Shown: in pieces, positions 21,431 through 37,973 of the stretch | Layout: every line of letters starts with the position of its first letter | Position numbering within the stretch: the first letter of the stretch is position 1 | Assembly (NCBI GenBank): GCA_017883135.1 | Contig: JADGOE010000027.1 | Span: 1-38,392, forward strand | DNA: 38,392 nucleotides | Source: Acidimicrobiales bacterium | Lineage (GTDB): Bacteria; Actinomycetota; Acidimicrobiia; Acidimicrobiales; RAAP-2 | Direction: 5' to 3' | Position numbers and translations under genes: made by a program | Notes under the pieces: model-generated | What the model was told of the DNA's origin: nothing | The model's input: the letters and a program-made list of their open reading frames with translations, nothing else | Databases searched by the model: none

Positions 21431-21457
21431 GAACACCGAGCCGAGCGGGCCCGAGCG

Positions 21458-22758: not shown

Positions 22759-22827
22759 GATTTGTGCCTAGCTCCTACGCATGGAGCCAATTGCACCTAC
22801 TGTCTGCCAGACACCCAGGGGGAGGCC

Positions 22828-24495
22828 ATGCTCACCATCGACCGATTGATCCGGCAGCGGGTGGGCGACGACCGGGTGGGGCTTGCTTTCGCCGACCGCA
22901 CCTGGTCCCACGACCAGGTCGTTGCTGCGCAGGCGGAGCGTGCCGCTCTACTGGCCTCGTTGCGCCGGCCTGGGCCGTTCCACGTGGCCCTCCTCCTCGA
23001 CAACGTCCCCGAATACGTGTTCTGGATGGGTGCAGCCGCACTGGCCGGAGCCGTCCTGGTCGGGGGCAACCCGACCCATCGGGGTGACGAACTGGCCCGC
23101 GACCTCTCCCATACCGAGTGCCAGTTGCTGGTGACCAACCCCGAGTATGCAGCGCTGGTGGCAGGCCATGATCTGGGCCCGGCGCTGCCCCCCGAGAGGA
23201 TCTTCGTCATCGACGACCCCTCCGGAGACGCCCGGTCGGGCCCGGCGACGCCGTATGGGGCGCTGCTGGCCACCGTGACCGGCGCTCCGCTCCCCGAACC
23301 GGCGGCGACGGCGGTCACCGAGGACTCCCTCGGTCTGCTGCTCTTCACCTCGGGGACGTCGGGTGCCCCGAAGGCCTGCCTCTGCAGCCAAGGGCGAATG
23401 GCACGGATCGGCTCGATCGTGGCCCAGATGTTCGAGCTCACCACAGATGACGTCTGCTACCTGGCCATGCCGCTCTTCCACTCCAACGCGCTTATGGCCG
23501 GATGGGCGCCCGCCCTGGCAGCGGGCGCCGCTGTCGCTCTGCGGGAGCGGTTCAGCGCCTCACAGTTCCTCATCGACGTCCGGCGGTACGGGGTCACCTA
23601 CTTCAACTACGTCGGGAAGCCGCTCTCCTACATTCTGGCCACCGTCGAGCTACCCGACGACGCCGACAACACCTTGCGCCGGGCGTTCGGCAACGAGGCG
23701 GCGGAGGCCGACGTGGCCAGGTTCGCCGAGCGGTTCGGATGCACGGTGCAAGATGCCTACGGATCGACCGAAGGGGGTGCCGCGGTGCAGCGCACGCCGG
23801 ACACGCCCCGGGGGGCCCTCGGGCGTGCCCTACCCGGCACCATGATCGTCAACTCGGACACCGGCGAGGAGTGTCCGAGGGCGGAGTTCGACGAGAACGG
23901 GCGACTGCTCAATGCCGAAGAGGCCATCGGGGAGATGGTCAGCCAGACCGGCGGGGCCGGCTTCGAGGGGTACTGGCGCAACGCCGAGGCGGAACAGGCC
24001 AGGGTCCGCAACGGATGGTACTGGACCGGGGACCTCGCCTACCGCGACGTCGATGACTTCTTCTACTTCGGGGGCCGCGACTACGACTGGCTGCGTGTCG
24101 ACGGAGAGAACTTCGCCGCCGCGCCGGTCGAAGGCGTGCTGCAACGGCATCCCGGCGTAGTACTGGCCTCGGTCTACGCGGTGCCCGACACCGTGGTGGG
24201 CGATCAGGTGATGGCCACCTTGCTGCTCCACCCTGGGAGCGACTTCGACGAGCAGGGCTTCGCCGAGTTTCTGGCCGGCGAGTCGGACCTGGGGACCAAG
24301 TGGGCTCCCAAGTACGTGCGCATCACGGCCGAGCTTCCGGTGACCGCCACCACCAAGGTGGTCAAGCGGGTCCTGCGCAACGAGGGGTGGCACTGTACGG
24401 ACCCTGTGTGGTGGCGCCCGCAGAGGGGCGATCCGTTCCGCCTTCTTCTGCCGGCCGACGCCGACGCCCTCGACAAGGCCATCGCCGAGCGCTGA
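22828..24495 (+). CDS. fadD17: FadD17-like acyl-CoA synthetase
   Basis: 555 aa from the ATG at 22828 (GGGGGAGG just upstream; the longer upstream frame crosses the operator). It is an AMP-forming ligase with P-loop LLFTSGTSGAPKACLCSQG, YGSTEGG, TGDLAYRD and a Lys near the C-terminus in ATTKVVKRVL. It tracks M. tuberculosis FadD17 (Rv3506) over its whole length, including MPLFHSNALMAGWA, FSASQFLIDVRRYG and VGKPLSYILATVELPDDADN (in part). FadD17 belongs to the KstR regulon and activates steroid side-chain acids with CoA. The operator upstream supports the same role here. Confidence 0.88.
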   Translation: MLTIDRLIRQRVGDDRVGLAFADRTWSHDQVVAAQAERAALLASLRRPGPFHVALLLDNVPEYVFWMGAAALAGAVLVGGNPTHRGDELARDLSHTECQLLVTNPEYAALVAGHDLGPALPPERIFVIDDPSGDARSGPATPYGALLATVTGAPLPEPAATAVTEDSLGLLLFTSGTSGAPKACLCSQGRMARIGSIVAQMFELTTDDVCYLAMPLFHSNALMAGWAPALAAGAAVALRERFSASQFLIDVRRYGVTYFNYVGKPLSYILATVELPDDADNTLRRAFGNEAAEADVARFAERFGCTVQDAYGSTEGGAAVQRTPDTPRGALGRALPGTMIVNSDTGEECPRAEFDENGRLLNAEEAIGEMVSQTGGAGFEGYWRNAEAEQARVRNGWYWTGDLAYRDVDDFFYFGGRDYDWLRVDGENFAAAPVEGVLQRHPGVVLASVYAVPDTVVGDQVMATLLLHPGSDFDEQGFAEFLAGESDLGTKWAPKYVRITAELPVTATTKVVKRVLRNEGWHCTDPVWWRPQRGDPFRLLLPADADALDKAIAER

Positions 24496-24547
24496 CCGGG
24501 CGCGGGCTGGGGAAGCGGCGGGTGTGGCGGCGGCGAGGAAGGCGAGG

Positions 24548-24583
24548 GCGGCTGGGCGGCTGGGCGGCTGGGCGGCTGGGCTG
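24548..24583 (+). repeat. GCGGCTGG octamer tandem repeat, 4.5 copies
   Basis: Four perfect 8-bp units and a half unit lie in the gap between fadD17 and the AidB-like gene. An 8-bp perfect palindrome, ACTGCAGT, occurs further on, near 24620. No ORF of interest is present. Confidence 0.85.
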
Positions 24584-24713
24584 ACCGACCTTCGACGGCG
24601 AGGCCCGCGAGTAGTACAACTGCAGTGTCGATGTCGGCTGACCACACAGACATGGCTTTCGGCCCTGGCGTCGAGTCCGGGGTCCCATCACCATCGCACC
24701 CAGGAGGTGGCGA

Positions 24714-26489
24714 ATGTCCAACGAGCGATCAACCGTCGCGGACGTGAGCAGTTCGGCGGGCGAGACGGGCGATCACCAGCCCGGACGTGAGGACCTGGCA
24801 CGCTGGTGGGCAGGGCGCCCGGCCAACTACTACGTCGCCACCCCCAACCTCCGGTCGGTGCTCGCGCTCCGCGCCGGTGAGGACCGAACGGCTGCGATGG
24901 AGCCGCGGCTGCACGACTTTGGCCGCACGATGGCCGAGGTGGTCGATCCGGTAGTCGAAACCCTGGAACGCCATCGCGAGCTGCCGGCACACGTCCCCTT
25001 CGACGGGATCGGCCGGCGGGTCGAGCAGGTCGAGTTCCACCCTGCCTACCGGCATGCCGGCGAGGCGGTGTGGGCATCGGGGTTGCTGGGGGTCAACCGT
25101 GGCGGCGACGGCGCCTTCGAGCAGGCGGCGCTCTTCTACCTACTGTCCCACGCCGGTGAGGGTGGGCACAGCTGCCCGGCGGTGTGTACCGCCGGCCTCG
25201 CGCGGGCGATCGAGCACCGCGGTTCGCCCGAGCTGAAATCGGCCTACCTGCCGGGCATCTTCGATGAGGAATACGACCGTTGCCTCAGGGGTTCGCAGTT
25301 CCTCACCGAAGTACAGGGCGGGTCGGATGTCGGCTCCAATGCGGCGCGTGCCATACCCGAACAGGCTGAGTCCGGAATGTGGCGGATCACCGGCGAGAAG
25401 TGGTTCTGCTCGGTGGCCGATGCCGACCTGTTCGCTGTGACCGCCCGTCCGGACGGGGCGGCACCGGGGACCCGCGGGCTTGGGTGCTTCCTCGTGCCCC
25501 GCACCCTCGACGGGACCGCTCCCAACGGGTTCCGCATCCGACGCCTGAAGGACAAGTTCGGAACCCGGTGCCTCGCCTCGGCGGAGATCGACTTCGAAGG
25601 TGCGCTGGGCTGGCCGATCGGTGCGGTCGAGGACGGGTTCCACGTCGCGGTCGAGGAGCTGCTCAATACCTCGCGGTGGCTGAATGCGGTCGGCTCGACA
25701 GGGCTCATGCGGCGTGCCTACCTGGAATCCTCGACCTTCGCGCAACACCGCCTTGCATTCGGTCGCTCCATCGGATCGTTCGCCGCCGTACGCGACCAGT
25801 TGGCGGTGATGAAGGTCGAAGAGCATGCCGCCTTAGCCTCCACCTTGGCGCTCACCGGTCTGCTCGACCGGGTGGACCACGACCGGGCCACGCCAGCCGA
25901 GGCCGCGTCCTACCGCTTCCTCGTCAACGCCAACAAGTACATCACCTCGATCACCGCCACCGACGTGGTCCACCGCGGCATCGAGGTGCTCGGCGGCAAT
26001 GGCACGATCGAGGACTTCTCACCACTCCCCCGCCTCTACCGGGATGCCATGGTGTACGAGAGCTGGGAAGGCACCCACAACGTCCTGTGCGCACAGGTAC
26101 ATCGCGACTGCACCCGTCTCGGTCTCCTCGACCATCTGTTCTCGTGGGTCCGCGGCGACCTGGCTATGGCCGGCGAGACGGGCGATGGCCACGCGGTCGA
26201 AGTGGCGTTGCAAGCCCTCGAGCCCCGCCTCCGGCGCTCGCTTGCCGACGCCGACCATGCCGCCATCCACTTCCGGGGCCAGCTCGACCGCCTGACCCGT
26301 GTGGTGCAGGCAACGTGCCTCCTCACCGAGGCAGCGAACGCCGGGGACCGCCGCACCGGTGCCGGGACCGAAAAGGGTGCGGTGGCCTCCCTCTTCGTGC
26401 GCCGGCACCTGATGCCCGGGTACGACACCCAAGACGACGCGACGTGGCCGGCACTGGTGGACACCGCCCTCGGTGGCGATCTCGGGTGA
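24714..26489 (+). CDS. AidB-like long acyl-CoA dehydrogenase
   Basis: 591 aa from the ATG at 24714 with a strong AGGAGGTG six bases before it. The flavoprotein signatures are QFLTEVQGGSDVGSNAARA (substrate/FAD loop), GEKWFCSVADADLF, GLGCFLVPRT and, near the C-terminal part, IEVLGGNGTIEDF with YESWEGTHNVLCAQVHRD. The GGSDV.SN and WEGT.N.L motifs and the length near 550-600 aa match the AidB branch, not ordinary 380-aa dehydrogenases. E. coli AidB is linked to alkylation stress and has weak isovaleryl-CoA dehydrogenase activity; the substrate here is unknown. Its end overlaps the PIN-domain gene (GTGA). Confidence 0.87.
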   Translation: MSNERSTVADVSSSAGETGDHQPGREDLARWWAGRPANYYVATPNLRSVLALRAGEDRTAAMEPRLHDFGRTMAEVVDPVVETLERHRELPAHVPFDGIGRRVEQVEFHPAYRHAGEAVWASGLLGVNRGGDGAFEQAALFYLLSHAGEGGHSCPAVCTAGLARAIEHRGSPELKSAYLPGIFDEEYDRCLRGSQFLTEVQGGSDVGSNAARAIPEQAESGMWRITGEKWFCSVADADLFAVTARPDGAAPGTRGLGCFLVPRTLDGTAPNGFRIRRLKDKFGTRCLASAEIDFEGALGWPIGAVEDGFHVAVEELLNTSRWLNAVGSTGLMRRAYLESSTFAQHRLAFGRSIGSFAAVRDQLAVMKVEEHAALASTLALTGLLDRVDHDRATPAEAASYRFLVNANKYITSITATDVVHRGIEVLGGNGTIEDFSPLPRLYRDAMVYESWEGTHNVLCAQVHRDCTRLGLLDHLFSWVRGDLAMAGETGDGHAVEVALQALEPRLRRSLADADHAAIHFRGQLDRLTRVVQATCLLTEAANAGDRRTGAGTEKGAVASLFVRRHLMPGYDTQDDATWPALVDTALGGDLG

Positions 26490-26914
26490 CGTCGCCGGGC
26501 GATCCGGATCGCGGTGTGCTCGACACCAACGCCCTCATCCTCCTCGAGCGGATCAGCAACCTGACCGACCTGCCACGGGAATCGGTCATCACCGGGGTCA
26601 CGCTTGGCGAACTGTCGGTCGGCCCGCTGGTCACCACCGATCCGGTCGAACGAGCAGCACGCCAGGCGCGCCTGCAGCAGGCCGAGGCTGATTGCGACCC
26701 GCTTCCCTTCGATGCCGCGGCTGTTCGCTCCTTCGGTGGCGTTGCTGCGGCGCTGCACCGATCGGGGCGAACACCCCATGCGCGTGCCTACGACGCGATG
26801 ATCGCCGCCATGGCCAACAGCCTGCCGCTGTACACGTGCAATCCGGTCGACTTCGCATCTATCGACCAGCTCGATCTGCGAGGTGTCCCCCACCCAGACA
26901 GGGCGGGCGACTGA
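26486..26914 (+). CDS. orphan PIN-domain (VapC-like) ribonuclease
   Basis: 142 aa from a GTG that overlaps the stop of the AidB-like gene by 4 bases. The PIN active-site acids are present: D13 (VLDTNALILL), E42 (LGELSVG), D103 (YDAMIAA) and D122 near CNPVDF. Such proteins cleave RNA with Mg or Mn and are usually the toxin of a VapBC pair. No antitoxin ORF precedes it; the upstream neighbour is the dehydrogenase itself. It may be a solitary nuclease, or the antitoxin may be elsewhere. It converges with the GH3 gene across only 12 bp. Confidence 0.83.
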   Translation: MTSPGDPDRGVLDTNALILLERISNLTDLPRESVITGVTLGELSVGPLVTTDPVERAARQARLQQAEADCDPLPFDAAAVRSFGGVAAALHRSGRTPHARAYDAMIAAMANSLPLYTCNPVDFASIDQLDLRGVPHPDRAGD

Positions 26915-26926
26915 CCGATGCCCGCC

Positions 26927-29161
26927 TCAGGCCGTACGGTCCTCGGCACCGGGTCCACGCTGGCCGTCGCCCCGATCCGTCGAGCCCTCACCGACATCGA
27001 CCTGCAGCACGATCCCGACGTCACAGGCGTGGCGGGCAACACGAAGCTCATAGCGCCCTGGGCGCACGACCATCGAGTGGGTGCTGACATCCCGCTCGGC
27101 CAGGGTCGCAGTCGGGACGGCAAGCTCGACGGTGGCGGTCCCGCCGGGCTCGAGCTCGATTCGCCCGAAGGCGACCAGTCGGCCCGGTCGGTTCGAACCG
27201 CGACGGTGTGCGTAGACCTGGGTGACATCGGCTCCGTCGCGCAGGCCGGTATTGCGGACCGTCGCAGTGACGCGGATCTCCCCGTCGACGTGCACGGCGC
27301 CAGCACACTCGATGGCGAAAGTCGTGTAGCTGAGGCCGAACCCGAAAGGGTACGCCGGGGTCACACCCTCACGGGCCAGATACCAGTAACCGTGCCACGC
27401 GTCGTAGACGAAGGCATCGGCCCTGGCTTCGAACACCGGAAGATCGGACTCCCTCCTCGGCACGGAGAACGGAAGCCTCCCGGTGGCGTCCACCCTGCCG
27501 AGAAGCACGTCTGCCAACCCGCTTCCGCCCTCCATCCCCGAGTACCACGACTGCACCACCGCCGGCACCGCCTCGTCCCACTCGGAGATGACCACGGCGC
27601 TGCCGGCCACCAGGGCCACCACCGTGCGCGGGTTGGCGGCCGACACGACCCCGATGAGCGCGATGTCGTCGTCGTGCAGATGCAGGGAGAGGCGATCACC
27701 CCCCACAGCGAACCCGCCGGTGTCGGCCCGGGGGGCGACGTGGGCCGGGGGCTCGATCGACCGCTCGGTGGCGATCTCCGCCGCGAACCGCTCCACCAGT
27801 GCGGGGTCGTCCTCACCCGGGAACAGCTGTGCCAGATCGGCGTTGGCGGAATCGCCGATGAACTCACCTTCATCGAGACGGGTGTACCCCACCACGACCA
27901 GTGCGACGTCCGCCGAGGTCGCCGATGACGCAGCCGCAACGAGGTCGACCCCGTCGTCGACGCTGAAGGTGACCTCGGAGAGGGCCGACCGGAGCCCATC
28001 GGCCACGGTCACCACATCGGGCGCCCAGACATCGCTCGACCCACCGTCTCCCAGATTGACCTCGGTGGCAAGTGCCCCGAACAGGGCGACCGACGACCCC
28101 GCAGGGAGGTTCAGCGGGAGGAGCGGTGCGCCACCCACCGGCTCGTTCCGCAGGAGCACCACCGACTTGGCCGCTGCCTCCCGTGCCAGTGACCGGTGAG
28201 CCGCACTGGCCAGCACCTCCCGCCCCGGAGCCGGCCTGCTCAGGACGTCGTCGAACCGCAGCCGCGTCGCGACCACCCGCTCGACCGCCTGGTCGACCTC
28301 CTCCCACGACACGTCGCCGTCCTCGATGGCCCGCTCGAGGTCGTGGGCTCGGATCATCCGATAGGGCATCTCCACATCCAGGCCTGCGCGGAGCGACCGG
28401 GCGGCATCGCGGATCCCGAAGATCCAGTCGCTGATGACGAAGCCGGCGAAACCCCACTCGCCGCGCAGCACGTCGGTCAAGAGCGCCCGGCTGTCCCCGC
28501 ACCACTCGCCGTTCACGCTGTTGTAGGCGCTCATCACCACGGCCACGCCCTCATCGACGATGCGCTTGAAGTGCGGCAGGTAGACCTCGTGGAGCGCCAC
28601 CTCGTCGACTGAGATGTCGACCTCGAAACGCGAGTTCTCCATCGAGTTGCAGGCGAAGTGCTTGACACAGGCCATGGCGTGGCGCTGCACGCCCCGGGTC
28701 AGCGCGCTACCCATCTCACCGACATGGTGGGGATCTTCGCCATAGGTCTCTTGGGCCCTCCCCCACGAGGGATGCCGCAGGACGTTGACGCACACCCCAC
28801 CGAAGAGATCGGCGCCGACCGCTCGTACCTCTTGGCCGATGGCGTCGCCGATGCGTTCCTCGAGGTCGACGTCCCAGGTGGCGCCCCGAGCCATGCTGAC
28901 CGGAAAGCAGGTCGCCTGGTCGACGACCACTCCCCTGGGGCCGTCCGAGAACGAAAACCCAGACAGTCCGAGGCGCTCCACCCGGGCGGCACGGAACGGG
29001 CTCTTGTGGTAACCGGCCTCGCCCAGGTAGGTCAGGCCCGCCCAAAAAGGGGCGTCGCCGTCGAGGCACCAGAGCTTCTCGTCTTCGGTCATCGTGGCCG
29101 TGACGGCGCGAGCAGCCTGACTCGCATCGTCCGCGACCCGGACCGTGTCGTCGGTCGTCAT
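26927..29161 (-). CDS. GH3-family beta-glycosidase, probably cytoplasmic
   Basis: 744 aa from the ATG at 29161, chosen for GGGAGAA seven bases upstream; the longer frame to 29215 lacks a site. The GH3 N-domain has RHPSWGRAQETYGEDP, KHFACNS (167-173) and the nucleophile Asp245 in GFVISDW. The second alpha/beta domain and the C-terminal fibronectin-like domain (YPFGFGLSYTTFAI) follow. No signal peptide is seen at the start, so it acts inside the cell. GH3 enzymes remove beta-linked glucose or xylose from many glycosides. It starts about 100 bp after ltp2 on the same strand, which raises the idea of steroid glycosides as substrates; this is inference from position only. Confidence 0.93.
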   Translation of the reverse strand: MTTDDTVRVADDASQAARAVTATMTEDEKLWCLDGDAPFWAGLTYLGEAGYHKSPFRAARVERLGLSGFSFSDGPRGVVVDQATCFPVSMARGATWDVDLEERIGDAIGQEVRAVGADLFGGVCVNVLRHPSWGRAQETYGEDPHHVGEMGSALTRGVQRHAMACVKHFACNSMENSRFEVDISVDEVALHEVYLPHFKRIVDEGVAVVMSAYNSVNGEWCGDSRALLTDVLRGEWGFAGFVISDWIFGIRDAARSLRAGLDVEMPYRMIRAHDLERAIEDGDVSWEEVDQAVERVVATRLRFDDVLSRPAPGREVLASAAHRSLAREAAAKSVVLLRNEPVGGAPLLPLNLPAGSSVALFGALATEVNLGDGGSSDVWAPDVVTVADGLRSALSEVTFSVDDGVDLVAAASSATSADVALVVVGYTRLDEGEFIGDSANADLAQLFPGEDDPALVERFAAEIATERSIEPPAHVAPRADTGGFAVGGDRLSLHLHDDDIALIGVVSAANPRTVVALVAGSAVVISEWDEAVPAVVQSWYSGMEGGSGLADVLLGRVDATGRLPFSVPRRESDLPVFEARADAFVYDAWHGYWYLAREGVTPAYPFGFGLSYTTFAIECAGAVHVDGEIRVTATVRNTGLRDGADVTQVYAHRRGSNRPGRLVAFGRIELEPGGTATVELAVPTATLAERDVSTHSMVVRPGRYELRVARHACDVGIVLQVDVGEGSTDRGDGQRGPGAEDRTA

Positions 29162-29237
29162 CGGCCCATTCTCCCAACCGCTCGGTGTCTCTGTGCCGTC
29201 ACCGTCGGGGACCATGCCTCAGCCCGGCAGTTCCAGC

Positions 29238-29279
29238 CGTCGGCTCGGTGGTCCACCCCGTCGGCTCAGCGGTCCACCC
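29238..29279. repeat. 21-bp tandem duplication at the 3' end of ltp2
   Basis: Two adjacent 21-bp copies (29238-29258 and 29259-29279) differ at two positions. The right copy contains the last codons and TGA of ltp2; the left copy is beyond the stop. Confidence 0.8.
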
Positions 29280-30453
29280 CGAGGATGAGCCCGCTGGTCG
29301 GCACACCTGTGCCCGCGGTGACCAGCACGTGGCTCACGTCGGGCACCTGGTTGACCGAACTGCCCCGCACCTGGCGGACGCCTTCGGCGATGCCGTTCAT
29401 CCCATGGATGTAGGCCTCGCCCAGCTGCCCGCCATGGGTGTTGATGGGAAGGCCGCCGCCGAGCTCGATGTTGCCGTCCCTCACGAAGTCCTTGGCCTCA
29501 CCCTTGCCGCAGAATCCCAGCTCTTCGAGCTGGTAGAGGATGTACGGGGTGAAATGGTCGTAGAGGACAGCGGTCTGGATGTCCGCCGGCGACAGCCCCG
29601 AGGTCTGCCACAGCTGGCGGGCCACCGCTGCCATCTCGCCGAGGCCGCAGAGGTCGTCGTGGTAGTAGGAGGTCATCATCTCCTGCCCGGGACCGGCACC
29701 TTGGGCCGCGGCCTCGATGACCACCGGCGTGCCGGGGAGATCGCGGGCCCGTTCCAGCGAGGTGACCACCAACGCCTGGCCGCCGTCGGTCTCCTGACAG
29801 CAGTCGAGCAGGTGGAGCGGCTCGACAATCCAACGTGACGCCTGATGCTCCTCGAGGGTGATCGGCTTCTCGTAGAACCATGCCTTGGGATTGGTGGCGG
29901 CGTGCTTGCGGTCGGCCACGGCCACCCGCCCCAGGTCTTCCGAGGTGGCCCCCGTCACATGGAGGTAGCGCTGGGCTGCCAGGGCCACCCACTGCGCAGG
30001 GGTCAGCAGCCCGACCGGCGCGTACCAGGCGAGGTTGGCCGTCTCCGCGTTGGGGACGGGCGGGCGGTTCTGCACACCGGCGCCGAACCTGTTGCCCGAT
30101 CGCTCGTTGAAGGCCCGGTAGCACACCACCACGTCGGCCACTCCGGCCTGCACCGCCATTGCCGCCTGCTGGATGGTCGCGCCTCCGGCGCCGCCCCCGT
30201 AGTGGATGCGGCTGAAGAAGGTCAGCTCCCCCATGCCGAGGCTCCGGGCGATCTCGATCTCCGGATTGGTGTCCGCGCTGAAGGTGACCATGCCATCGAC
30301 CTCGGCAGGCTCGATGCCCGCGTCACGGAGGGCCAGATCGACCGCTTCGACAGCGAGCTGGAGCTCACTTCGGCCGGACTCCTTGGAGAACTCGGTAGCC
30401 CCGATGCCTACGATCGCGGTGTTGCCGGTAAACGTGTGCTCGATACCGCTCAT
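29266..30453 (-). CDS. ltp2: Ltp2, thiolase-like steroid side-chain aldolase
   Basis: 395 aa, with ATG overlapping the chsH1 stop (ATGA). It matches M. tuberculosis Ltp2 (Rv3540c) closely: AIVGIGATEFSKESGRSEL, ELTFFSRIHYGGGAGGATIQ (in part), VADRKHAATNPKAWFYEKPI and the C-terminal block INTHGGQLGEAYIHGMNG. Ltp2 has a thiolase fold but works as an aldolase. Together with the DUF35 domain of ChsH2 it splits the 17-hydroxy C3-side-chain CoA ester, releasing propionyl-CoA and the 17-keto steroid. Tyrosines in LYDHFTPY and GEAYIHG fit the tyrosine-based mechanism reported for this family. It is the last gene of the five-gene leftward operon. Confidence 0.94.
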   Translation of the reverse strand: MSGIEHTFTGNTAIVGIGATEFSKESGRSELQLAVEAVDLALRDAGIEPAEVDGMVTFSADTNPEIEIARSLGMGELTFFSRIHYGGGAGGATIQQAAMAVQAGVADVVVCYRAFNERSGNRFGAGVQNRPPVPNAETANLAWYAPVGLLTPAQWVALAAQRYLHVTGATSEDLGRVAVADRKHAATNPKAWFYEKPITLEEHQASRWIVEPLHLLDCCQETDGGQALVVTSLERARDLPGTPVVIEAAAQGAGPGQEMMTSYYHDDLCGLGEMAAVARQLWQTSGLSPADIQTAVLYDHFTPYILYQLEELGFCGKGEAKDFVRDGNIELGGGLPINTHGGQLGEAYIHGMNGIAEGVRQVRGSSVNQVPDVSHVLVTAGTGVPTSGLILGVDR

Positions 30454-30974
30454 CGCTGCGACCCTTCGCTTCCCTTGTGGCCGGACCCGGTAGCGCCGCC
30501 GGCGTTGCCTTGGGAAGGCAGCCGGAGGCATACCGTACCGGTCACGTGATCACCCAGGCTGTTCGCTCCCCGCAGGGTCACCTCGACGCAGCCGGTGCCG
30601 TCGTCCGCCGGTGAGTCGTCCTTGGCCGTCACCGAGCCGGTCAGCGTCATGGTGTCGTCGGGGTAGTTGGGCGCACCAAGTCGGATATTCACGTCGGTGA
30701 GGACCGCTCCCGGGCCGGACCAGTCGGTCACGTATCGCCCAACGATCCCGTTGGTCGAGAGGATGTTCATGAAGATGTCCTTCGAGCCGCGCTCCACGGC
30801 CAGCTTCGCGTCATGGTGCACGTCCTGATAGTCGCGGGACGCAATCGCCGTGGAGACGATGAGGGTTCGGGTCAGAGGGACCACCAACTCGGGCAGCGCG
30901 TCGCCGACGGTGACGTCATCGAAGGTGAGCGTGGTGGCACGGGGCCCTGTGGAGGTTCCGGCGTTCGTGCTCAT
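30450..30974 (-). CDS. chsH1: ChsH1, MaoC-like enoyl-CoA hydratase subunit
   Basis: 174 aa, with ATGA overlaps at both ends with fadE28 and ltp2. It is a single hotdog MaoC domain with the hydratase-2 dyad in RDYQDVHHD (D48 and H53), followed by SKDIFMNILSTNGIVGRYVTDW. In M. tuberculosis ChsH1 (Rv3541c) pairs with the MaoC half of ChsH2 and hydrates the unsaturated C22 steroid CoA ester. Here the protein carries about 30 extra residues at the C-terminus, rich in Gly, Ser and Lys. Confidence 0.9.
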   Translation of the reverse strand: MSTNAGTSTGPRATTLTFDDVTVGDALPELVVPLTRTLIVSTAIASRDYQDVHHDAKLAVERGSKDIFMNILSTNGIVGRYVTDWSGPGAVLTDVNIRLGAPNYPDDTMTLTGSVTAKDDSPADDGTGCVEVTLRGANSLGDHVTGTVCLRLPSQGNAGGATGSGHKGSEGSQR

Positions 30975-32140
30975 GCCGGCACCGCCGGGGCGCCTTGGAG
31001 CACGTCGATGACCTGGCGCCCTAATCGGGCCAGGTGCGCACTGGGTGGACCGAGGAGCAGCTCGATCTGCTTCCCCCACAAGAAGTAGCGATGGATGGGG
31101 TACTCAATGTCTGCGCCCATGCCGCCGTGGAGGTGCTGGGTGGCGAAGACCGCGCGCTGGCCGGCCTCCGAGGCGAACCACGAGGCGACGGTGACCGCTC
31201 GATCGGCATCCAGCCCGTTGTCGAGCCGCCACGCTGCCTGCCACATGGTCACCCGGATCGACTCGGTGTCGATCGCCGCGTCGGCGGCGCGGAGCATGGT
31301 CCCCTGAAAGGTCGAGAGCGGTCGGCCGAACTGCTCGCGAGTGTTGAGGTACGCGGCAGTCTGGGAAACCGCCGCCTCGACCACCCCCACCTGCAACGCA
31401 CAGAGCCCGGTCCAGGCCCGGTTGAGGATCCACGCCACCATGTCGTACCCCTCGGAGGGTTCGCCACCGGCCAACAGGTCGTCCGGCCCGGCCACCACAC
31501 CGTCGAGATGCAGGTGGGAGTGGATCTCGCGATTGGTGGTGACCGCCCGCTCGATCGTGACTCCCGTGGCACGGGGGTCGATGGCGGCGATGACCACGCC
31601 ATCCCCCAAGGACGCCGGAATGAGCACACGATCGGCCACGTGGGCGAAAGGCACCGCGAACGCGGTGCCTGAGAGCGCCATCCCCCCGTCGGGACCGGCT
31701 CCGGCCCGGGCGGTGACCGACGGCCGACCTGGGCCTCCCACCGCGATGTCGCCGGCCACATCGGCCAGCGCCGCGCTGAGCACCACTTCACCTGCCGCCA
31801 CGCCGGGCAACACCGTGGCCTGCAACGCCGCTGAGCCGAACTCAGCAATGGGCATGGCGCCCACCACGAGCGTGGCCCACAGCGGCAAGGGGGCCACCGA
31901 TCGACCGTGGGCCTCGAGCACCAGTGCCAGTTCGACCATCCCGAAGCCCCCTCCCCCATGGGAGACCGGGAGTGCCAGACTCAGCAGGTCGGCCCGGGCC
32001 AACTCGCCCCACAGGTCGCGATCGAACCGCTCCTCGGTGGCTTCCACCTGCTGGACCCGGTCCGGGGTCACCATGCCGACAAAGATGCCGTCGATGGCCT
32101 CCTGCACGGCCTTCTGCTCCTCGTTGAAGATGAAGTTCAT
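30971..32140 (-). CDS. fadE28: FadE28-like acyl-CoA dehydrogenase subunit (ChsE1)
   Basis: 389 aa. Its ATG shares one base with the chsH2 stop (TGATG). The sequence follows FadE28/ChsE1 (Rv3544c): an N-terminal MNFIFNEEQKAVQEAI, the segment REQFGRPLSTFQGTMLRAAD and the C-terminal QHLHGGMGADIEYPIHRYF. ChsE1 and ChsE2 form a heterotetramer that introduces the double bond in the propionyl side chain of the degraded steroid CoA ester. In such pairs each subunit supplies only part of each FAD site, and this subunit lacks the usual TEP.aGTD loop that its partner retains. Confidence 0.9.
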   Translation of the reverse strand: MNFIFNEEQKAVQEAIDGIFVGMVTPDRVQQVEATEERFDRDLWGELARADLLSLALPVSHGGGGFGMVELALVLEAHGRSVAPLPLWATLVVGAMPIAEFGSAALQATVLPGVAAGEVVLSAALADVAGDIAVGGPGRPSVTARAGAGPDGGMALSGTAFAVPFAHVADRVLIPASLGDGVVIAAIDPRATGVTIERAVTTNREIHSHLHLDGVVAGPDDLLAGGEPSEGYDMVAWILNRAWTGLCALQVGVVEAAVSQTAAYLNTREQFGRPLSTFQGTMLRAADAAIDTESIRVTMWQAAWRLDNGLDADRAVTVASWFASEAGQRAVFATQHLHGGMGADIEYPIHRYFLWGKQIELLLGPPSAHLARLGRQVIDVLQGAPAVPA

Positions 32141-33207
32141 CAGCCCTCCCTCGTCTCTCCGGCCGAGCCACCGCTCGCGCCAGTCGCCTCCACCTGTCGG
32201 AACACCGGCAACGTCAACTCGTCGTCGAAGGCCTCGAACTCCGCTTGCACGGCCATCCCGATGGCCACTGTGTCCGGGGTGATGCCGGAGACATTGGCCA
32301 CCAATCGCGTCCCCTCCTCGAGCTCCACCAGCGCCACCACGAGCGGGTAGTCGAACGCGGCCACCTGCGGGTAGTGGTTGACCACGTAGCTGTAGATGGT
32401 GCCCCGCCCCGACGCCGTCACCGTGTCCCAGTCGAACGAACGGCAGTGGGCACACGACGGTCGGGGGGGATGTCGGAGCGTTCCGCATGCAGCGCACCGC
32501 TGGATCAGCAGCTTGTGCTGCCTGGCGCCCTCGAAGAAGAAGCTGTTGTCCTGGGTGAGCGCGGGGCGGGGCCGCTTCGGCCGCTTCGGCTCGGCCGCCG
32601 GTTCGGTGGCCCCCGGCGCCGGGCGAGGCTTGAACTTGAGGATGCGGAACAACATGGTGGCCACCGGTTCGTCGTTCTGGTCGGTGAACTCGAGGCGGGT
32701 GGTGATGAAGCGGCCGTCCCCGAGACCTGTCTTCTTCTCCTCGGACACCGCGTCGACGGTCGAGGTGACCGAGATCTGGTCGCCGGGCACCAGGGCTCGC
32801 TCGTAGTGCTGGTCGCAGTTGGTGGCGACCACCGAGGTGAACCCGGCTTCGTCGAGCGCCGCCATCAGTTGTTCACTGGGCGAATCCACGGCGTCGATCC
32901 CTTTGGCACGTGCCTCATCGGCTGCCAGGCTGGCGCGCAGCCCACGCATGATCCACGCCTGCAGCATGGTGGGGGGAGCGATGATGCCCGGAAAGCCGGC
33001 GTCTCGGGCTGCCTCCTCGTCGACGTAGACCGGGTTGAGATCACCCATCGCCTCGACCCAGTGTCGGATCATCGGCAGGTTGACCGGGTCGGGTCCTGGA
33101 TGCCCGGGGCCGGCGGAGCGCCCCACGAACGACTGGAGCAACTCGTCGAGGGGCGCCTGGGCCGATGTGGAGGTGGAGGCTTCCGAGGTGGCGGCGGGTG
33201 GGTTCAT
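32140..33207 (-). CDS. chsH2: ChsH2, MaoC-like plus DUF35 bifunctional subunit
   Basis: 355 aa, with ATGA overlap with fadE29 and one shared base with fadE28. Residues about 20-192 are a MaoC-type hotdog domain whose GDLNPVY segment has Tyr where active hydratases carry His, as expected for the non-catalytic half of the ChsH1-ChsH2 hydratase. After a Pro/Lys-rich linker (about 193-218) comes a DUF35 domain with a rubredoxin-like zinc site, C238/C241 and C252/C255, and an OB-fold (GTIYSYVVNHYPQVAAFDYP). The DUF35 half is the partner of the Ltp2 aldolase. The fusion links the hydration and cleavage steps. Confidence 0.93.
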   Translation of the reverse strand: MNPPAATSEASTSTSAQAPLDELLQSFVGRSAGPGHPGPDPVNLPMIRHWVEAMGDLNPVYVDEEAARDAGFPGIIAPPTMLQAWIMRGLRASLAADEARAKGIDAVDSPSEQLMAALDEAGFTSVVATNCDQHYERALVPGDQISVTSTVDAVSEEKKTGLGDGRFITTRLEFTDQNDEPVATMLFRILKFKPRPAPGATEPAAEPKRPKRPRPALTQDNSFFFEGARQHKLLIQRCAACGTLRHPPRPSCAHCRSFDWDTVTASGRGTIYSYVVNHYPQVAAFDYPLVVALVELEEGTRLVANVSGITPDTVAIGMAVQAEFEAFDDELTLPVFRQVEATGASGGSAGETREG

Positions 33208-34364
33208 CTGGACGACCTCTTCATTCCGAGACCGGCCATGGCCAGTATCTCCCGTTGGACCTCGTTGACCCCGCCGCCGAAGGTGTTGATCTGAGCCTGG
33301 CGACCGGCTCGTTCGAGATCACCGTGGAGGACCGCGCCCGGCGAGCCGGGGCTGAGATACCCGCCGGCACCGACGATGCCTAGCAGGCGGCGGTAGATCT
33401 CGACGGTCGACTCGGTCCCGAAGACCTTGACTGCCGACGAGTCGGCCGGGCCCAGCGTGCCGTCGGCCACCGCCGCCGTCATGCGCCAGTTGAGCAGCTT
33501 CTGGGCCTCGAGCAGGGCGTAGGTCCGGGCCAGGTCCTCTTGGATCCACCCCACACCGGACAGCTTCTGGCCGACCACCCACTCGGCGACCTCGTCCCAC
33601 AGCCGGAAGGCGAGCGCGCTCACCGCGGCAAGGCCCACCCGCTCGTGGTTGAGCTGGCCGGTTATCAGACGCCAGCCCTCATTGACCTCTCCCACCAGGG
33701 CCGAGCGGGGCACGCGGACTCCGTCGTAGTACGAGGCCGTCGTCGCCACCCCGCCCACGGTGACGATCGGGGTGCACGAGAACCCCGGTGACGACGTCGG
33801 CACCATCAGAATGGAGATTCCCTTGTGCTTGGGCGCATCGGGGTCGGTCCGGACCGCCAGCCAGATGAAGTCGGCCTGGTCGGCTCCGCTGGTGAAGATC
33901 TTGTTCCCGTTGATGGTCCACTCGTCGCCATCCAACACCGCTCGCGTGCGCAGCGAGGCCAGATCGGTGCCGGCATCCGGCTCGGTGTAGCCGATGGCGC
34001 AGTTGATCTCGCCGGCCAGGATGCCCGAAAGGAAGAACTTCTTCTGCTCCTCGGTCCCGTGCTTGATCACCATCGGACCCACGGTGTTGAGCGTCACGAA
34101 CGGAAACGGTGCCCGGGCCCGCTGGACCTCGTTGAAGAAGATGAACTGATCGGTGGCGGGTCGCCCCTGGCCGCCGTACTCCTTGGGCCATCCGATTCCG
34201 AGCCAACCGTCCTTGCCCATCTTCCGGACGATGCTGCGGAACGTCTTGCCGCCCTCGCTCTCGGTGTCGAGCGCCCGCCGGACGTCTTCTGTCAGCAGCC
34301 GGGCGAAGTAGGCCCTCAGCTCGGCCCGGAGCGCCAGTTGCTCGGGAGTCTCTTCGAGGTGCAT
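33204..34364 (-). CDS. fadE29: FadE29-like acyl-CoA dehydrogenase subunit (ChsE2)
   Basis: 386 aa; ATG at 34364 with GGAGGAA about ten bases upstream. It follows FadE29/ChsE2 (Rv3543c) over the whole length: LGIGWPKEYGG, CAIGYTEPDAGTDLASLRTR (in part), FIWLAVRTDPDAPKHKGISI, ASYYDGVRVP and FGGGVNEVQREILA. The TEP.aGTD loop and the GGVNE end are FAD and substrate contacts. It is the first gene of the igr-like operon and is divergent from cyp125. The order fadE29-chsH2-fadE28 differs from the M. tuberculosis order fadE28-fadE29-chsH2. Confidence 0.93.
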   Translation of the reverse strand: MHLEETPEQLALRAELRAYFARLLTEDVRRALDTESEGGKTFRSIVRKMGKDGWLGIGWPKEYGGQGRPATDQFIFFNEVQRARAPFPFVTLNTVGPMVIKHGTEEQKKFFLSGILAGEINCAIGYTEPDAGTDLASLRTRAVLDGDEWTINGNKIFTSGADQADFIWLAVRTDPDAPKHKGISILMVPTSSPGFSCTPIVTVGGVATTASYYDGVRVPRSALVGEVNEGWRLITGQLNHERVGLAAVSALAFRLWDEVAEWVVGQKLSGVGWIQEDLARTYALLEAQKLLNWRMTAAVADGTLGPADSSAVKVFGTESTVEIYRRLLGIVGAGGYLSPGSPGAVLHGDLERAGRQAQINTFGGGVNEVQREILAMAGLGMKRSSR

Positions 34365-34543
34365 GACGTGTGATTCCTCCACTGTGTGACATCTGGTTCC
34401 CAACTGAGTGCGACGGCCGGCACCGACACCGGGATCAGACGAGCGACGGGGCACCGAGGCCATCGGGCAACCCATGCCCTGGTGGACCCCCTGCCCCCGA
34501 CACGACCAAGCCTTCCTTCGGAGCGCCACCGGGTCCAATTTCG

Positions 34544-34572
34544 TTGGAGGACCGGTGCGGCTGCCCTATGAT
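34544..34572 (+). promoter_or_regulatory. sigma70-type promoter of cyp125
   Basis: TTGGAG (34544-34549), a 17-bp spacer and TATGAT (34567-34572), a near-consensus -10, precede the P450 gene. The predicted start point is about 34579. The remaining 170 bp of this 300-bp divergent gap towards fadE29 should hold the leftward promoter, but I see no clear one. Confidence 0.6.
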
Positions 34573-34575
34573 AAC

Positions 34576-34589
34576 TGATACACGTTCTA
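34576..34589. promoter_or_regulatory. KstR-like operator over the cyp125 start point
   Basis: TGATACACGTTCTA matches TnnAACnnGTTnnA at 7 of 8 fixed positions and starts four bases after the -10 box, so a bound repressor would block initiation. The following bases GAAACGT extend it into a wider imperfect palindrome (ACGTT, 5 bases, AACGT). Confidence 0.55.
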
Positions 34590-34664
34590 GAAACGTCATT
34601 GCCGCCGAGGCATGACCACGGTTGCCGTCTGCGGCGTCGACCAGTTACTACCGGGGGAAGAATC

Positions 34665-35894
34665 ATGGAACTGGGCGACATCAACCTATGCGATCCGGGC
34701 GCCTTCGTCTCATCGGTGCCCCACGACTGGTTCGCCCTGTTGCGCCGGGAGGCGCCGGTGCAGTGGCACCCCGACCCCGACGGCTTCGCCGAAGGATTCT
34801 GGTCGGTGACCCGCTACGACGACTGCGTGGGCGTGAACCGCGACTACGAGCACTTTTCGTCCTATCGCGCGGCCACCCTCTTCCACGACTTCGATGATGA
34901 GGTCCTCGGGCAGCAGCGCATGATGATGCTCAACATGGACCCTCCCATGCACACCCGCTACCGGCGCCTGGTGAACAAGGGGTTCACCCCCCGGATGATC
35001 AGGGACCTCGAGGCGAAGGTGATCACCTCCACCGATTCGATTCTGGACAGTGTGTGCGAGCAAGGGTCCACCGACTTCGTGGAGCAGATCTCGGCGGAGC
35101 TGCCCCTGCAGGTCATCGCCGAGCTCATGGGCGTCCCCCAACACGATCGGCACCTGGTGTTCGACTGGTCGAACCGGATGGTCGGGTCCGAGGACCCCGA
35201 GTACCAGATTTCGCCTGAATCCAGTACCCAGGCCTCGATGGAGCTGTTCGCCTACGCCGACGAGCTGTGCGCCCAGAAGCGCCTCGATCCCCACGAAGAC
35301 CTGTTCAGCGTCCTCACCCAGGCGGAGATCGAAGGGGACCAGCTGTCCCAGCTGGAGCTCGACCTCTTCTTCCTCCTGCTGGCGGTGGCCGGCAACGAGA
35401 CGACCCGCAACCTGATTTCCGGTGCGATGGTGGCGTTCTTCGACAATCCCGACCAGTGGGAGCGCCTGCGTGCCGACCGGTCGCTGCTGCCGTCCGCCAT
35501 CGAGGAGATGCTGCGCTACGTATCTCCGGTGATGCACTTCCGCCGGCAAGCGACAGCCGACGTGCTCATCGGCGATCAGAAGGTCGCCGAAGGCGACAAA
35601 GTCGTCTTCTGGCACATCTCGGCCAATCGGGACGAGTCGGTCTTCGCCAGTCCCGACACCTTCGACATCGGGCGCACCCCCAACAACCACATGGCCTTCG
35701 GCGGTGGCGGGGCCCACTTCTGCCTCGGGGCGAACCTGGCACGGATGGAGATCCGGGTGATGTTCGACCGCCTGCTCGACCGCATGCCCGACATCCGGCT
35801 CGACGGAGAGGTGCAACGGCTCCGCTCCAACTTCATCAACGGCGTGAAGCACATACCGGTGACCTTCGCGCCGTCGGCCCCGGTTGGCCAGTAG
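34665..35894 (+). CDS. cyp125: CYP125-type cytochrome P450, probable sterol side-chain oxygenase
   Basis: 409 aa from the ATG at 34665 with GGGGGAAG upstream. P450 marks: I-helix AVAGNETTRN (oxygen-activating Thr about 246-247), ExxR at 281-284 (EMLR) and the heme loop FGGGGAHFCLGANLAR with ligand C353. Overall it is closest to CYP125/CYP124/CYP142-type sterol oxidases: MMLNMDPPMHTRYRRLVNKG, GFTPR, ELPLQVIAELMGVPQHDR, NRMVGSEDPEYQ and SNFINGVKHIPV all follow CYP125A1. CYP125 oxidises the terminal C26/C27 methyl of cholesterol-type side chains to the acid. The position next to the igr-like operon matches M. tuberculosis. Redox partners are not in the window. Confidence 0.88.
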   Translation: MELGDINLCDPGAFVSSVPHDWFALLRREAPVQWHPDPDGFAEGFWSVTRYDDCVGVNRDYEHFSSYRAATLFHDFDDEVLGQQRMMMLNMDPPMHTRYRRLVNKGFTPRMIRDLEAKVITSTDSILDSVCEQGSTDFVEQISAELPLQVIAELMGVPQHDRHLVFDWSNRMVGSEDPEYQISPESSTQASMELFAYADELCAQKRLDPHEDLFSVLTQAEIEGDQLSQLELDLFFLLLAVAGNETTRNLISGAMVAFFDNPDQWERLRADRSLLPSAIEEMLRYVSPVMHFRRQATADVLIGDQKVAEGDKVVFWHISANRDESVFASPDTFDIGRTPNNHMAFGGGGAHFCLGANLARMEIRVMFDRLLDRMPDIRLDGEVQRLRSNFINGVKHIPVTFAPSAPVGQ

Positions 35895-35928
35895 TCGCCA
35901 CGAGCACTCCAGAAAGCGGACGCCCACC

Positions 35929-36822
35929 ATGCGATTCCATCAGGCAGTCACCTTCCTACCGGTCGAGGAGACCCTGAGCCTGTCGGCTGCGTGCGACGGC
36001 ATGGGGTACTCGGGCATCTACCTGTCGGACCACCTGTTCAATCCCCGCGACCTGAAGTCGCGGTACACCTACTCCAAGGCTCCCGACGGGGCCCCGTTCT
36101 GGGAGAAGGAGGCGGCGTGGCCGGACCCGATGTGCGTGATCGCCGCGCTGTCGGGGGTGACCACCAACCTGACCTTCACCACCGGCATCTACATCGCACC
36201 GGTGCGCGACCTGATCACCGTGGCCAAGTCGGTGGGGACGACCGCGGTCCTCTCGGGCAACCGGGTCCGACTGGGCGTGGGCGTTGGCTGGTGCGAAGAG
36301 GAGTACGCGCAGACCGGGCAGGACTTCCACACCCGCGGCAAGCGCCTGAACGACATGATCCCCGCGCTGCGCGCCCTGTGGCAGGGCGGTTGGGTCGAGT
36401 ACCACGGCACCCACTACGACGTGCCGCCCTGCCAGATGAACCCCGCACCGACCCTGCCGGTGCCGATCCTCGGTGGCGGGGACTCGGAGCCGGCACTGCT
36501 CCGGGCCACCACCCTGTGCGACGGGTGGATCAACACGGGGGCGGCCGCGCCCGACGAGGCGTTCCAACAGGTCCGCAAAGTGAAGGACGCCCTCAAGCGG
36601 GAGGGCAGGGAGAACGAGGCGTTCTCCGTCTACGTCGCCGTCCGGGCCATGCCCGACCCCGATCTCTACCGGCGGCTCGAGGATGCCGGGGTCACCGACC
36701 TGTTGTGCGCACCGTGGATGGCCGTGCAGGCCAAGGAGGGCGATACGCCCGCCTCGATCCACAACGCACGGGTGGCGGCGTGCGAGGGGTTCGCCGAGCA
36801 CATCATCGACGCCTTCTCCTGA
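35929..36822 (+). CDS. LLM-class F420-dependent oxidoreductase (TIGR03619-type)
   Basis: 297 aa from the ATG at 35929, 34 bp after cyp125 and probably in its transcript. Luciferase-like barrel marks are MGYSGIYLSDHLFNP, LTFTTGIYIAPVRD, SGNRVRLGVGVGWCEEEY and TLPVPILGGGDSEPALLR. The short single-domain form with GVGVGWCEEEY is typical of actinobacterial F420-linked members. The substrate is unknown; co-transcription with a P450 suggests a redox step on a steroid intermediate. Confidence 0.87.
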   Translation: MRFHQAVTFLPVEETLSLSAACDGMGYSGIYLSDHLFNPRDLKSRYTYSKAPDGAPFWEKEAAWPDPMCVIAALSGVTTNLTFTTGIYIAPVRDLITVAKSVGTTAVLSGNRVRLGVGVGWCEEEYAQTGQDFHTRGKRLNDMIPALRALWQGGWVEYHGTHYDVPPCQMNPAPTLPVPILGGGDSEPALLRATTLCDGWINTGAAAPDEAFQQVRKVKDALKREGRENEAFSVYVAVRAMPDPDLYRRLEDAGVTDLLCAPWMAVQAKEGDTPASIHNARVAACEGFAEHIIDAFS

Positions 36823-36938
36823 CCGAGCGGCCGTTCGGCCCTGACCGGTGCCGGCGACTCGGCACTGGCTGACGGGCCGATGGGCCGGGAAGCCGCCCGA
36901 CGCTAAGGTCGGGAGATCGCGCTTAGGGGAGGGAACCC

Positions 36939-37973
36939 ATGAAGGACATGAAGGTTGGAATGCAGCTCGGCTATTGGGGTTCAGGCCCCCCGGCCAACGC
37001 CCCCGAGCTGGTGGCCGAGGCCGAGCGGCTCGGCTTCGATTCCATCTGGACGGCGGAGGCCTACGGCTCCGACGCGCTCACCCCGCTGGCCTGGTGGGGC
37101 TCGCGGACCGAGCGGGTCCGCCTGGGTACGGCCCTGTGCCAGCTGTCGGCTCGCACCCCGACCGCCATGGGCATGGCCGCGATCACCATGGACCACCTGT
37201 CCGGTGGGCGTTTCGTCCTCGGGCTCGGCGTGTCCGGACCCCAGGTGGTGGAGGGTTGGTACGGCCAGTCCTTCGAGAAGCCGCTTGCCCGCACGAGGGA
37301 GTACCTGGACATCGTGCGCAAGGTCATCGCCCGAGAGTCGCCGGTCACCAACGACGGACCCCACTACCCGCTCCCCTACCCGGGTGGCACCGGACTGGGC
37401 AAGCCGTTGAAGCCCATCGTCCACCCCCTGCGCAAAGAGATCCCGATCATTCTGGGAGCGGAAGGACCGAAGAACGTAGCCCTGGCCGCCGAAGTCGCCG
37501 ACGGCTGGTTCCCCATCTTCTTCTCCCCCAATGCGGTGAAGGCGTTCGAGCCGGCGCTGGCCGAAGGGTTCGCCCGACCGGGTGCGAGGCACACCGCCGA
37601 CGACTTCGAGGTCATCGCCTTCGCACCGACCCTGATCGACGACGACGTAGAGAAGGCGGCCGACAGCTTCCGTCCCTACCTCGCCCTCTACATCGGGGGC
37701 ATGGGAGCCAAGTCGATGAACTTCCACTTCGACGTGTTCTCCCGCATGGGGTACGAGGCAGAGGCCACAAAGATCCAAGAGCTCTACCTCGACGGACGCA
37801 AGGACGAGGCCGCCGCCGCCGTCCCCACCGCGCTCATCGAGGACACCGCCCTGATTGGCCCCAAGGAGAAGATCCGCGACGACCTCGAGGGCTGGCGCGA
37901 GTCCATCGCCACCACACTGCTGGTAGCCGGCGATACCACCACCCTCCAGACCATCGCGGAACTGGCGCTGTAG
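36939..37973 (+). CDS. LLM-class F420-dependent oxidoreductase, Rv3520c-like
   Basis: 344 aa from the ATG at 36939 with AGGGGAGGG upstream. It follows M. tuberculosis Rv3520c over its length: MQLGYWGSGPP, TAEAYGSDALTPLAWWGS, LGTALCQLSARTPTAM, VLGLGVSGPQVVEGWYGQ and ILGAEGPKNVALAAE. Rv3520c lies within the cholesterol catabolism gene region and is assigned as an F420-dependent oxidoreductase; its reaction is not settled. No KstR-like site was seen in the 116-bp gap upstream. Confidence 0.9.
   Translation: MKDMKVGMQLGYWGSGPPANAPELVAEAERLGFDSIWTAEAYGSDALTPLAWWGSRTERVRLGTALCQLSARTPTAMGMAAITMDHLSGGRFVLGLGVSGPQVVEGWYGQSFEKPLARTREYLDIVRKVIARESPVTNDGPHYPLPYPGGTGLGKPLKPIVHPLRKEIPIILGAEGPKNVALAAEVADGWFPIFFSPNAVKAFEPALAEGFARPGARHTADDFEVIAFAPTLIDDDVEKAADSFRPYLALYIGGMGAKSMNFHFDVFSRMGYEAEATKIQELYLDGRKDEAAAAVPTALIEDTALIGPKEKIRDDLEGWRESIATTLLVAGDTTTLQTIAELAL

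Follow-up and report, generated by a model that had tools for sequence, protein, structure and literature searches.

A predicted steroid side-chain operon of the igr/cas type, in casLMNOP order, in an Acidimicrobiales genome

Introduction

Removal of the last C3 (propionyl) unit of the steroid C17 side chain is associated with the igr operon of Mycobacterium tuberculosis, whose gene order we take to be cyp125-fadE28-fadE29-chsH2-chsH1-ltp2; an order of this type is seen in Mycobacterium loci such as L288 of our collection. Here we analyze a 38,392-nucleotide stretch of DNA (the window) from an Acidimicrobiales bacterium (GenBank assembly GCA_017883135.1, contig JADGOE010000027.1, positions 1 to 38,392), in which five leftward genes in the order fadE29-chsH2-fadE28-chsH1-ltp2 diverge from a gene for a CYP125-family cytochrome P450. 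This is an operon of a known type in an order that has already been published, and it very likely functions in C3 side-chain removal.

Papers are cited below, by PMC number, for the portions of their text and tables that bear on these genes. In Rhodococcus jostii, the genes RHA1_RS28440, 28445, 28450, 28455 and 28460 are tabulated as CasL, CasM, CasN, CasO and CasP respectively, and the synteny of the C3 side-chain gene set is described as apparently similar in most steroid side-chain degraders (PMC8399759). The igr-operon of Nocardioides simplex comprises KR76_12325 (chsE2/casL), 12330 (chsH2/casM), 12335 (casN), 12340 (chsH1/casO) and 12345 (ltp2/casP), in table rows that also give KstR and label casN an acyl dehydratase (PMC7807495); as CasL and CasN make up the dehydrogenase, KR76_12335 is read here as a FadE28-type gene. 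Comamonas ORF40-44 are chsH2, chsE1, chsH1, ltp2 and chsE2 (PMC12502768, which also has a figure comparing side-chain genes between bacteria). Among the open-licence literature matches listed for steroid degradation in Acidimicrobiia or Acidimicrobiales, none is a paper on this locus as judged by title and start of abstract, and the string 'acidimicrob' is absent from the main text of the steroid-degradation survey PMC5790920.

Organization of the operon

The first gene of the operon in transcript order is fadE29 (33204–34364, leftward; chsE2/casL type), predicted to encode a 386-residue acyl-CoA dehydrogenase subunit. It is followed on the same strand by chsH2 (32140–33207; casM type), whose 355-residue product has a MaoC-like domain, a zinc ribbon and an OB/DUF35 domain; by fadE28 (30971–32140; chsE1/casN type), for a 389-residue acyl-CoA dehydrogenase subunit and situated between chsH2 and chsH1; by chsH1 (30450–30974; casO type), for a putative catalytic hydratase subunit of 174 residues; and by ltp2 (29266–30453; casP type), for a putative retro-aldolase of 395 residues. 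The start and stop codons in the window overlap by 4, 1, 4 and 4 bases at the four successive junctions. The genes for the heteromeric acyl-CoA dehydrogenase, the heteromeric hydratase and the Ltp2 aldolase form one co-directional five-gene cluster, as in igr/cas-type operons, and the P450 gene lies divergently at about 34665–35894 on the rightward strand. A preliminary description of this layout is borne out in its coordinates, its 1- or 4-base overlaps and the divergent P450 gene, and all six igr partners that it listed are present, each identified by profile or structure matches. It also held the ChsE1-ChsE2, ChsH1-ChsH2 and ChsH2-DUF35/Ltp2 pairs to be kept, which is true of gene content and not of adjacency: the order E2-H2-E1-H1-Ltp2 splits both heteromeric pairs.

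Identities of the gene products

FadE28 and FadE29 find their best Protein Data Bank (PDB) matches in chains A and B of 6wy8 (257 and 512 bits), with 4x28 behind (193 and 408 bits). The two 6wy8 chains are named Tcur3481 and Tcur3483 in the PDB entry, which gives these names only, and we take them to be ChsE1-ChsE2 of T. curvata. Assignment of a P450 to the CYP125 family of steroid C26-monooxygenases calls for at least about 40% identity to members of that family, which must also be its closest relatives. The P450 of the window matches PDB entries of CYP125MRCA (537 bits), extant CYP125 (349 bits), CYP124 (332 bits) and CYP142 (269 bits), and it is 42% identical over the aligned part to the copy in genome G097, a borderline value under the 40% rule.

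Ltp2 matches the NCBIfam lipid-transfer protein model PRK07855 with 684.8 bits (cut-off 469), and its best solved relative is 6ok1_A (606 bits), 6OK1 chain A being T. curvata Ltp2 (PMC12329534). Proteins of this kind are recognized by a YDHF motif and a second catalytic tyrosine, Tyr344 in T. curvata (PMC12329534), and the window copy has YDHF at residues 298–301 and Tyr348 within GEAY. ChsH2 has the Pfam domains FAS1_DH_region, OB_ChsH2_C and zf-ChsH2, and in the PDB its DUF35 part best matches 6ok1_B and its MaoC part 4wnb_A; ChsH1 best matches 4wnb_B. The catalytic subunit ChsH1 is distinguished by a His/Asp dyad and ChsH2 by a tyrosine in place of the catalytic histidine and a DUF35 domain at its C-terminus (PMC11321319, which also treats 4W78 as a steroid side-chain enzyme). 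Consistent with this, ChsH1 of the window retains RDYQDVHHD with the dyad, and the MaoC domain of ChsH2 reads GDLNPVYV, with Tyr replacing the His and a DUF35 domain at the C-terminus. As an aside, the chain labels of 4w78 run opposite to those of 4wnb, its ChsH1 chain matching ChsH2 of the window and its ChsH2 chain matching ChsH1, and the 4w78 names look swapped.

Both acyl-CoA dehydrogenases and MaoC proteins belong to large families, and many generic NCBIfam models match these proteins below cut-off, so a chance resemblance of general fatty-acid enzymes was considered. It is scarcely credible here. In the PDB, the P450, Ltp2, ChsH2 and ChsH1 all match steroid side-chain enzymes best; many loci across the phylum keep the five genes as a group; and both the combination of ChsH2 with DUF35 and the Ltp2 YDHF/Tyr motifs are specific. 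Best matches to unrelated fatty-acid enzymes, which the preliminary description named as evidence that would speak against it, were not seen, and the profile and PDB matches contradict that identity. We conclude with high confidence that the five genes form an ordinary igr/cas-type operon, in casLMNOP order, predicted to remove the last C3 unit of the C17 side chain.

Gene order among relatives

All 12 other loci fetched from the same genus have the identical five-gene order, as do 8 of 11 from elsewhere in the family. Of the three exceptions, L107 and L108 are truncated at contig ends, and L112 is a second ltp2 locus of the same-family genome G033, with chsH2-chsH1-ltp2 and without fadE28. 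The nearest named loci by Ltp2 identity are those of Acidimicrobiales Chersky.37_4 (93%) and Acidimicrobiaceae palsa_738 (89%) and palsa_742 (88%). Duplication at the operon end was noted in L072 (genome G014), where two neighboring ltp2 genes at 9456–11815 are 81% and 74% identical to the window copy.

Among the 80 named loci, which are the best 80 of 581 confirmed loci and do not give frequencies in nature, fadE28 lies after chsH2 in 43 (the interposed order), the M. tuberculosis order is found in 22, and 15 have neither. Three of the 43 (L227, L238 and L245) are cut such that just fadE28-chsH1-ltp2 is visible, and in six (L239-L242, L244 and L247) the dehydrogenase before chsH2 is nearer FadE30 than FadE29; 11 of the 15 with neither order show chsH2-chsH1-ltp2 without a visible same-strand dehydrogenase gene upstream. 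By taxon, the interposed order is represented in Acidimicrobiales, Streptomyces, Embleya, Actinocorallia, Actinomadura darangshiensis, Rhodococcus globerulus and R. spelaei, and in Pseudomaricurvus in the form chsH2-fadE28-ltp2. The M. tuberculosis order occurs in Mycobacterium, Mycolicibacterium, other Rhodococcus, Prescottella, Lentzea, Saccharopolyspora, Nonomuraea, Streptosporangium and two other Actinomadura. An unnamed set of 56 loci including the window, some of whose genomes are shared with the named set, has 34 interposed, 8 in M. tuberculosis order and 14 with neither. The preliminary description had regarded the order as new. That claim does not hold: the order is published for the R. 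jostii casLMNOP genes (PMC8399759) and the N. simplex igr-operon (PMC7807495), and it is the commoner of the two among the named loci (43 vs 22).

A quick tree of FadE28 was built from 42 of the 44 interposed rows including the window (L238 and L245 being omitted as short) and the 22 M. tuberculosis-type rows, with four FadE29 sequences as outgroup. The 22 M. tuberculosis-order rows form one clade (SH-aLRT 100), and the order label changes once. With the basal split of the 64 FadE28 rows left open and an outgroup branch of length 2.31, the tree does not fix the direction of the change. Given the wider spread of the interposed order, and the occurrence of an identical chsH2-chsE1-chsH1-ltp2 block among Comamonas and Pseudomonas genes, the interposed order is probably the older one and the M. 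tuberculosis order derived, although horizontal transfer could mimic such greater age.

Three further observations concern this sample. L244, titled Bifidobacterium breve isolate TE-11nov19-73, groups tightly in the tree with the uncultured actinobacterial metagenome-assembled genomes (MAGs) L241 and L247, and its title probably reflects a misassigned bin. L096 (genome G385, family f59) has an interposed-order copy, and a second Ltp2 gene lies at C73; both order kinds may be present in this genome. T. curvata was not counted as a further interposed example: the names Tcur3481 and Tcur3483 suggest one gene between, but according to PMC12502768 chsE1E2 could not be located close to the T. curvata genes.

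A conserved block between fadE29 and cyp125

The fadE29/cyp125 intergenic region aligns poorly over 18 family loci except for a promoter- or operator-like block at 34567–34590 (rightward strand), which comprises TATGAT (34567–34572) and then a KstR-like box, TGATACACGTTCTA (34576–34589). The block has the consensus CCTATGATA-ACTGATAC[A/G][C/T]GTTCTAG with few deviations. In a KstR-controlled promoter the core palindrome TnnAACnnGTTnnA would be expected close to the -10 element. The box has one mismatch to TNNAACNNGTTNNA and is one base off this KstR core (PMC1995591), of which L066 has the exact form. Where the M. tuberculosis cyp125 site includes TGAAACGTGTTCTA (PMC1995591), four of the loci (L068, L072, L110 and L225) carry TGATACGTGTTCTA. 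Plain shuffles attain an equal match to the core in 0–23 of 300 cases per locus, and conservation of the block is thus stronger evidence than the core match. The divergent promoter region may be under the control of a KstR-like repressor.

Steroid nucleus genes and the A/B-ring gap

The genome from which the window derives (G000; 2.96 Mb in 126 contigs, 98.2% completeness, 2.6% contamination) contains on contig C115 (L138) the genes ipdC-ipdB-ipdA-echA20 with a divergent ipdF, the composition of a HIP (C/D-ring) cluster. The products are 58% (IpdA), 48% (IpdB), 64% (IpdC, cut by the contig end), 65% (EchA20) and 50% (IpdF) identical to the copies in G097, which are named by synteny. Relatives have an ipdF/echA20-ipdA-ipdB-ipdC cluster like that of G000 in L139-L152. 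Genes for NAD(P) transhydrogenase (PntA-type, and PntB by Pfam) adjoin the cluster in L139 (4152–6915), with matching places in L140-L142, L145, L146 and L151. Conserved neighbors of the cluster were scanned and include PntA-/PntB-type transhydrogenase, EAL/GGDEF proteins and a ketoacyl synthase, with no A/B-ring candidate among them.

Side-chain and C/D-ring genes co-occur. In G000 and 60 relatives, Ltp2 (E≤1e-140) is found in 33 and IpdA (E≤1e-70) in 36 of the 61 genomes, cut-offs that were picked after the hits had been seen; at the search thresholds of 1e-80 and 1e-30 each query matched 37. Both are present in 32 genomes and neither in 24, with Ltp2 only in one (G028) and IpdA only in four (G009, G038, G044 and G055), giving a Fisher p of about 8e-12 that is uncorrected for relatedness. 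The CYP125-family P450, the KstR-like box and the ipd genes co-occurring with ltp2 support predicted steroid use by the lineage.

Several observations weigh against this reading. Five loci of the genus or family (L064, L071, L073, L074 and L076) lack the P450 gene next to the operon, and a CoA ligase encoded at 22708–24495 (rightward), which resembles CasI and FadD17 at 653 and 533 bits, lies under the curated cut-offs of 900 and 850. A 17-base motif of the KstR-like block (up to two mismatches) occurs once in six of eight genomes, at the steroid side-chain locus, and twice in G000 and G011, each with one extra place; reversed-pattern controls give 0–3, and a genome-wide KstR regulon is accordingly unsupported. 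KstR sites were also tried and rejected as a guide to A/B-ring genes, the motif being almost confined to the side-chain locus in these genomes. In G000, KstD went undetected at E≤1e-15 with all 25 candidates scored (controls G097, G207 and G218 match), and HsaC at E≤1e-4 (controls G097 and G207 match, G218 does not). KshA_C went undetected at E≤1e-3, with a model that exceeds its cut-off in 18 of the 61 genomes; its controls included no known KshA bearer, and among the 14 control genomes only Corynebacterium glutamicum matched it, under the cut-off. With these three undetected, the genome does not support full breakdown of the rings through the usual 9,10-seco route. Elsewhere, where the top three or top four candidates per genome were scored, KstD and HsaC are present in all 16 Ltp2-bearing genomes of the control family f59, while of 10 Ltp2 genomes in family f54 six have KstD and two HsaC, neither is found in the five Ltp2 genomes of f42, f45 and f46, and the four further Ltp2 genomes sampled from the window's taxonomic order have KstD in none and HsaC in one (G324). 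Since Ltp2 genomes of other families often lack both at the thresholds used, the absence is not peculiar to the window's family, and the operon alone is no proof of full steroid catabolism.

Across the 61 genomes KstD (E≤1e-60) is found in 5, HsaC (E≤1e-40) in 4 and KshA_C above cut-off in 18. Among the 32 with both Ltp2 and IpdA the numbers are 3 (G025, G039 and G048), 3 (G024, G041 and G048) and 11, and at these thresholds none has all three. A KshA query from G097 at E≤1e-60 matched none of the 61, a threshold too strict to count because KshA_C homologues of about 30% identity exist, some near Ltp3-Ltp4 in order relatives. Such KshA genes, about 30% identical to that of G097, lie near Ltp3-Ltp4 in L175, L176 and L177, and an Rv3520c-family LLM gene is also near in L175 and L177. 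Other matches narrow the gap: within the window's genus, 4 of 14 genomes (G007, G009, G011 and G012) have KshA_C above cut-off, congener G007 has an HsaC-like match (33%, 9e-32) and G002, G006 and G011 have weak partial ones, and partial KstD-like matches occur in congener G013 (35%, 5e-29) and in family members G036 and G023.

The preliminary description had made its reading depend on nucleus-degrading genes elsewhere in the genome, and these are in place for rings C/D and undetected, as KstD, KshA and HsaC, for rings A/B. The gap may reflect another way of opening rings A/B, enzymes that have diverged, genes that the MAGs do not contain, or partial degradation. A partial degrader would strip side chains and use C/D-ring fragments (HIP-type) from other bacteria, leaving rings A/B unopened; the side-chain and ipd clusters found without KstD, HsaC and KshA_C in G000, and the lack of any Ltp2+IpdA genome with all three, fit this picture. 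We nonetheless regard it as rather doubtful, since it would be odd to retain both the entire side-chain locus and the C/D cluster without the intermediate step, KshA_C is above cut-off in a third of those genomes (11/32), the HsaC-like and partial KstD-like matches in congeners G007 and G013 point the other way, and A/B-ring genes may be diverged or unbinned. That the family instead opens rings A/B without KstD, KshA and HsaC, through a route not yet described or enzymes too diverged to recognize, with the usual enzymes for the side chain and rings C/D, is also an unlikely proposition.

The wider locus and its substrate

The operon and P450 gene belong to a conserved locus extending from about 18956 to 37973. 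It includes genes for an acyl-CoA synthetase of the PRK07798 subfamily (18956–20683, rightward; 741 bits, cut-off 543), an isochorismatase-domain protein, an LLM protein, the CasI/FadD17-like ligase and, beyond the P450 gene, two LLM-class F420-dependent oxidoreductases, one matching TIGR03619 (35932–36822, rightward) and one of the Rv3520c family (36939–37973, rightward; TIGR03559, 481 bits). Type IV pilus genes (PilB-like ATPase, PilM and PilO) at 101–2917 and 10039–12566 of the window are unrelated to the steroid locus.

The CasI-like ligase in this conserved locus, together with a gene order equal to that of the cas genes, raises the question of whether the substrates are bile-acid-like steroids rather than sterols, as for R. 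jostii casLMNOP. This we consider improbable: a CYP125-family P450 gene on a shared divergent promoter region is what would be anticipated where C8 sterol side chains are degraded, N. simplex shares the order and has it listed under sterol degradation in PMC7807495, and an order found in 43 of the named loci is no substrate marker.

Discussion

The gene identities, overlaps, catalytic motifs, conserved order, promoter block and C/D-ring co-occurrence reported here are sequence-based, and the substrate, reaction order, complex assembly and regulation are inferred from characterized homologues. By that analogy, CYP125 would oxidize the terminal methyl group of the sterol, and CoA ligases would activate the resulting acid. 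After earlier rounds of beta-oxidation, FadE28-FadE29 would dehydrogenate the CoA ester with a C3 side chain and ChsH1-ChsH2 would hydrate it, ChsH1 being the catalytic subunit and ChsH2 holding the rings. Ltp2, docked on the DUF35 domain of ChsH2, would then cleave off propionyl-CoA to leave a 17-ketosteroid. The complete igr-type gene set agrees with the preliminary proposal of full removal of the last C3 unit of the sterol side chain; it is not proof that the organism mineralizes steroids completely.

The textbook M. tuberculosis order is one clade and probably derived, and the order that splits both heteromeric pairs is the commoner among the loci sampled, such that adjacency of the ChsE1-ChsE2 or ChsH1-ChsH2 genes is unnecessary for persistence of an operon. 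The range of steroid side-chain and C/D-ring genes reaches Acidimicrobiales MAGs, some of whose names (palsa, Chersky) hint at permafrost soils. The A/B-ring enzymes that went undetected mark a gap that can be tested. The survey phylogeny in PMC5790920 used two proteins, KshA and HsaC, and if A/B-ring opening were non-canonical, such genomes would be overlooked by KshA/HsaC-based searches.

Comparison with known systems

The six genes of the M. tuberculosis igr operon and their deduced reactions are the same as in the window; fadE28 there precedes fadE29 and cyp125 is co-directional, whereas here fadE28 follows chsH2 and cyp125 is divergent. The N. simplex VKM Ac-2033D genes KR76_12325-12345 have the chsE2-chsH2-casN-chsH1-ltp2 order of the window, and kstD and kshA are also tabulated for that strain (PMC7807495), neither of which was detected in the window's genome. 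Comamonas testosteroni TA441 ORF40-44 and the Pseudomonas stutzeri Chol1 cluster share the chsH2-chsE1-chsH1-ltp2 block (PMC12502768, PMC8399759), with the chsE2-type gene after ltp2 rather than before chsH2 as in the window. Closest in order is casLMNOP of R. jostii RHA1, with acyl-CoA dehydrogenase, hydratase subunit, acyl-CoA dehydrogenase, hydratase subunit and aldolase exactly as in the window (PMC8399759), although it sits in a cholate cluster whereas the window operon has a divergent CYP125-family P450 gene.

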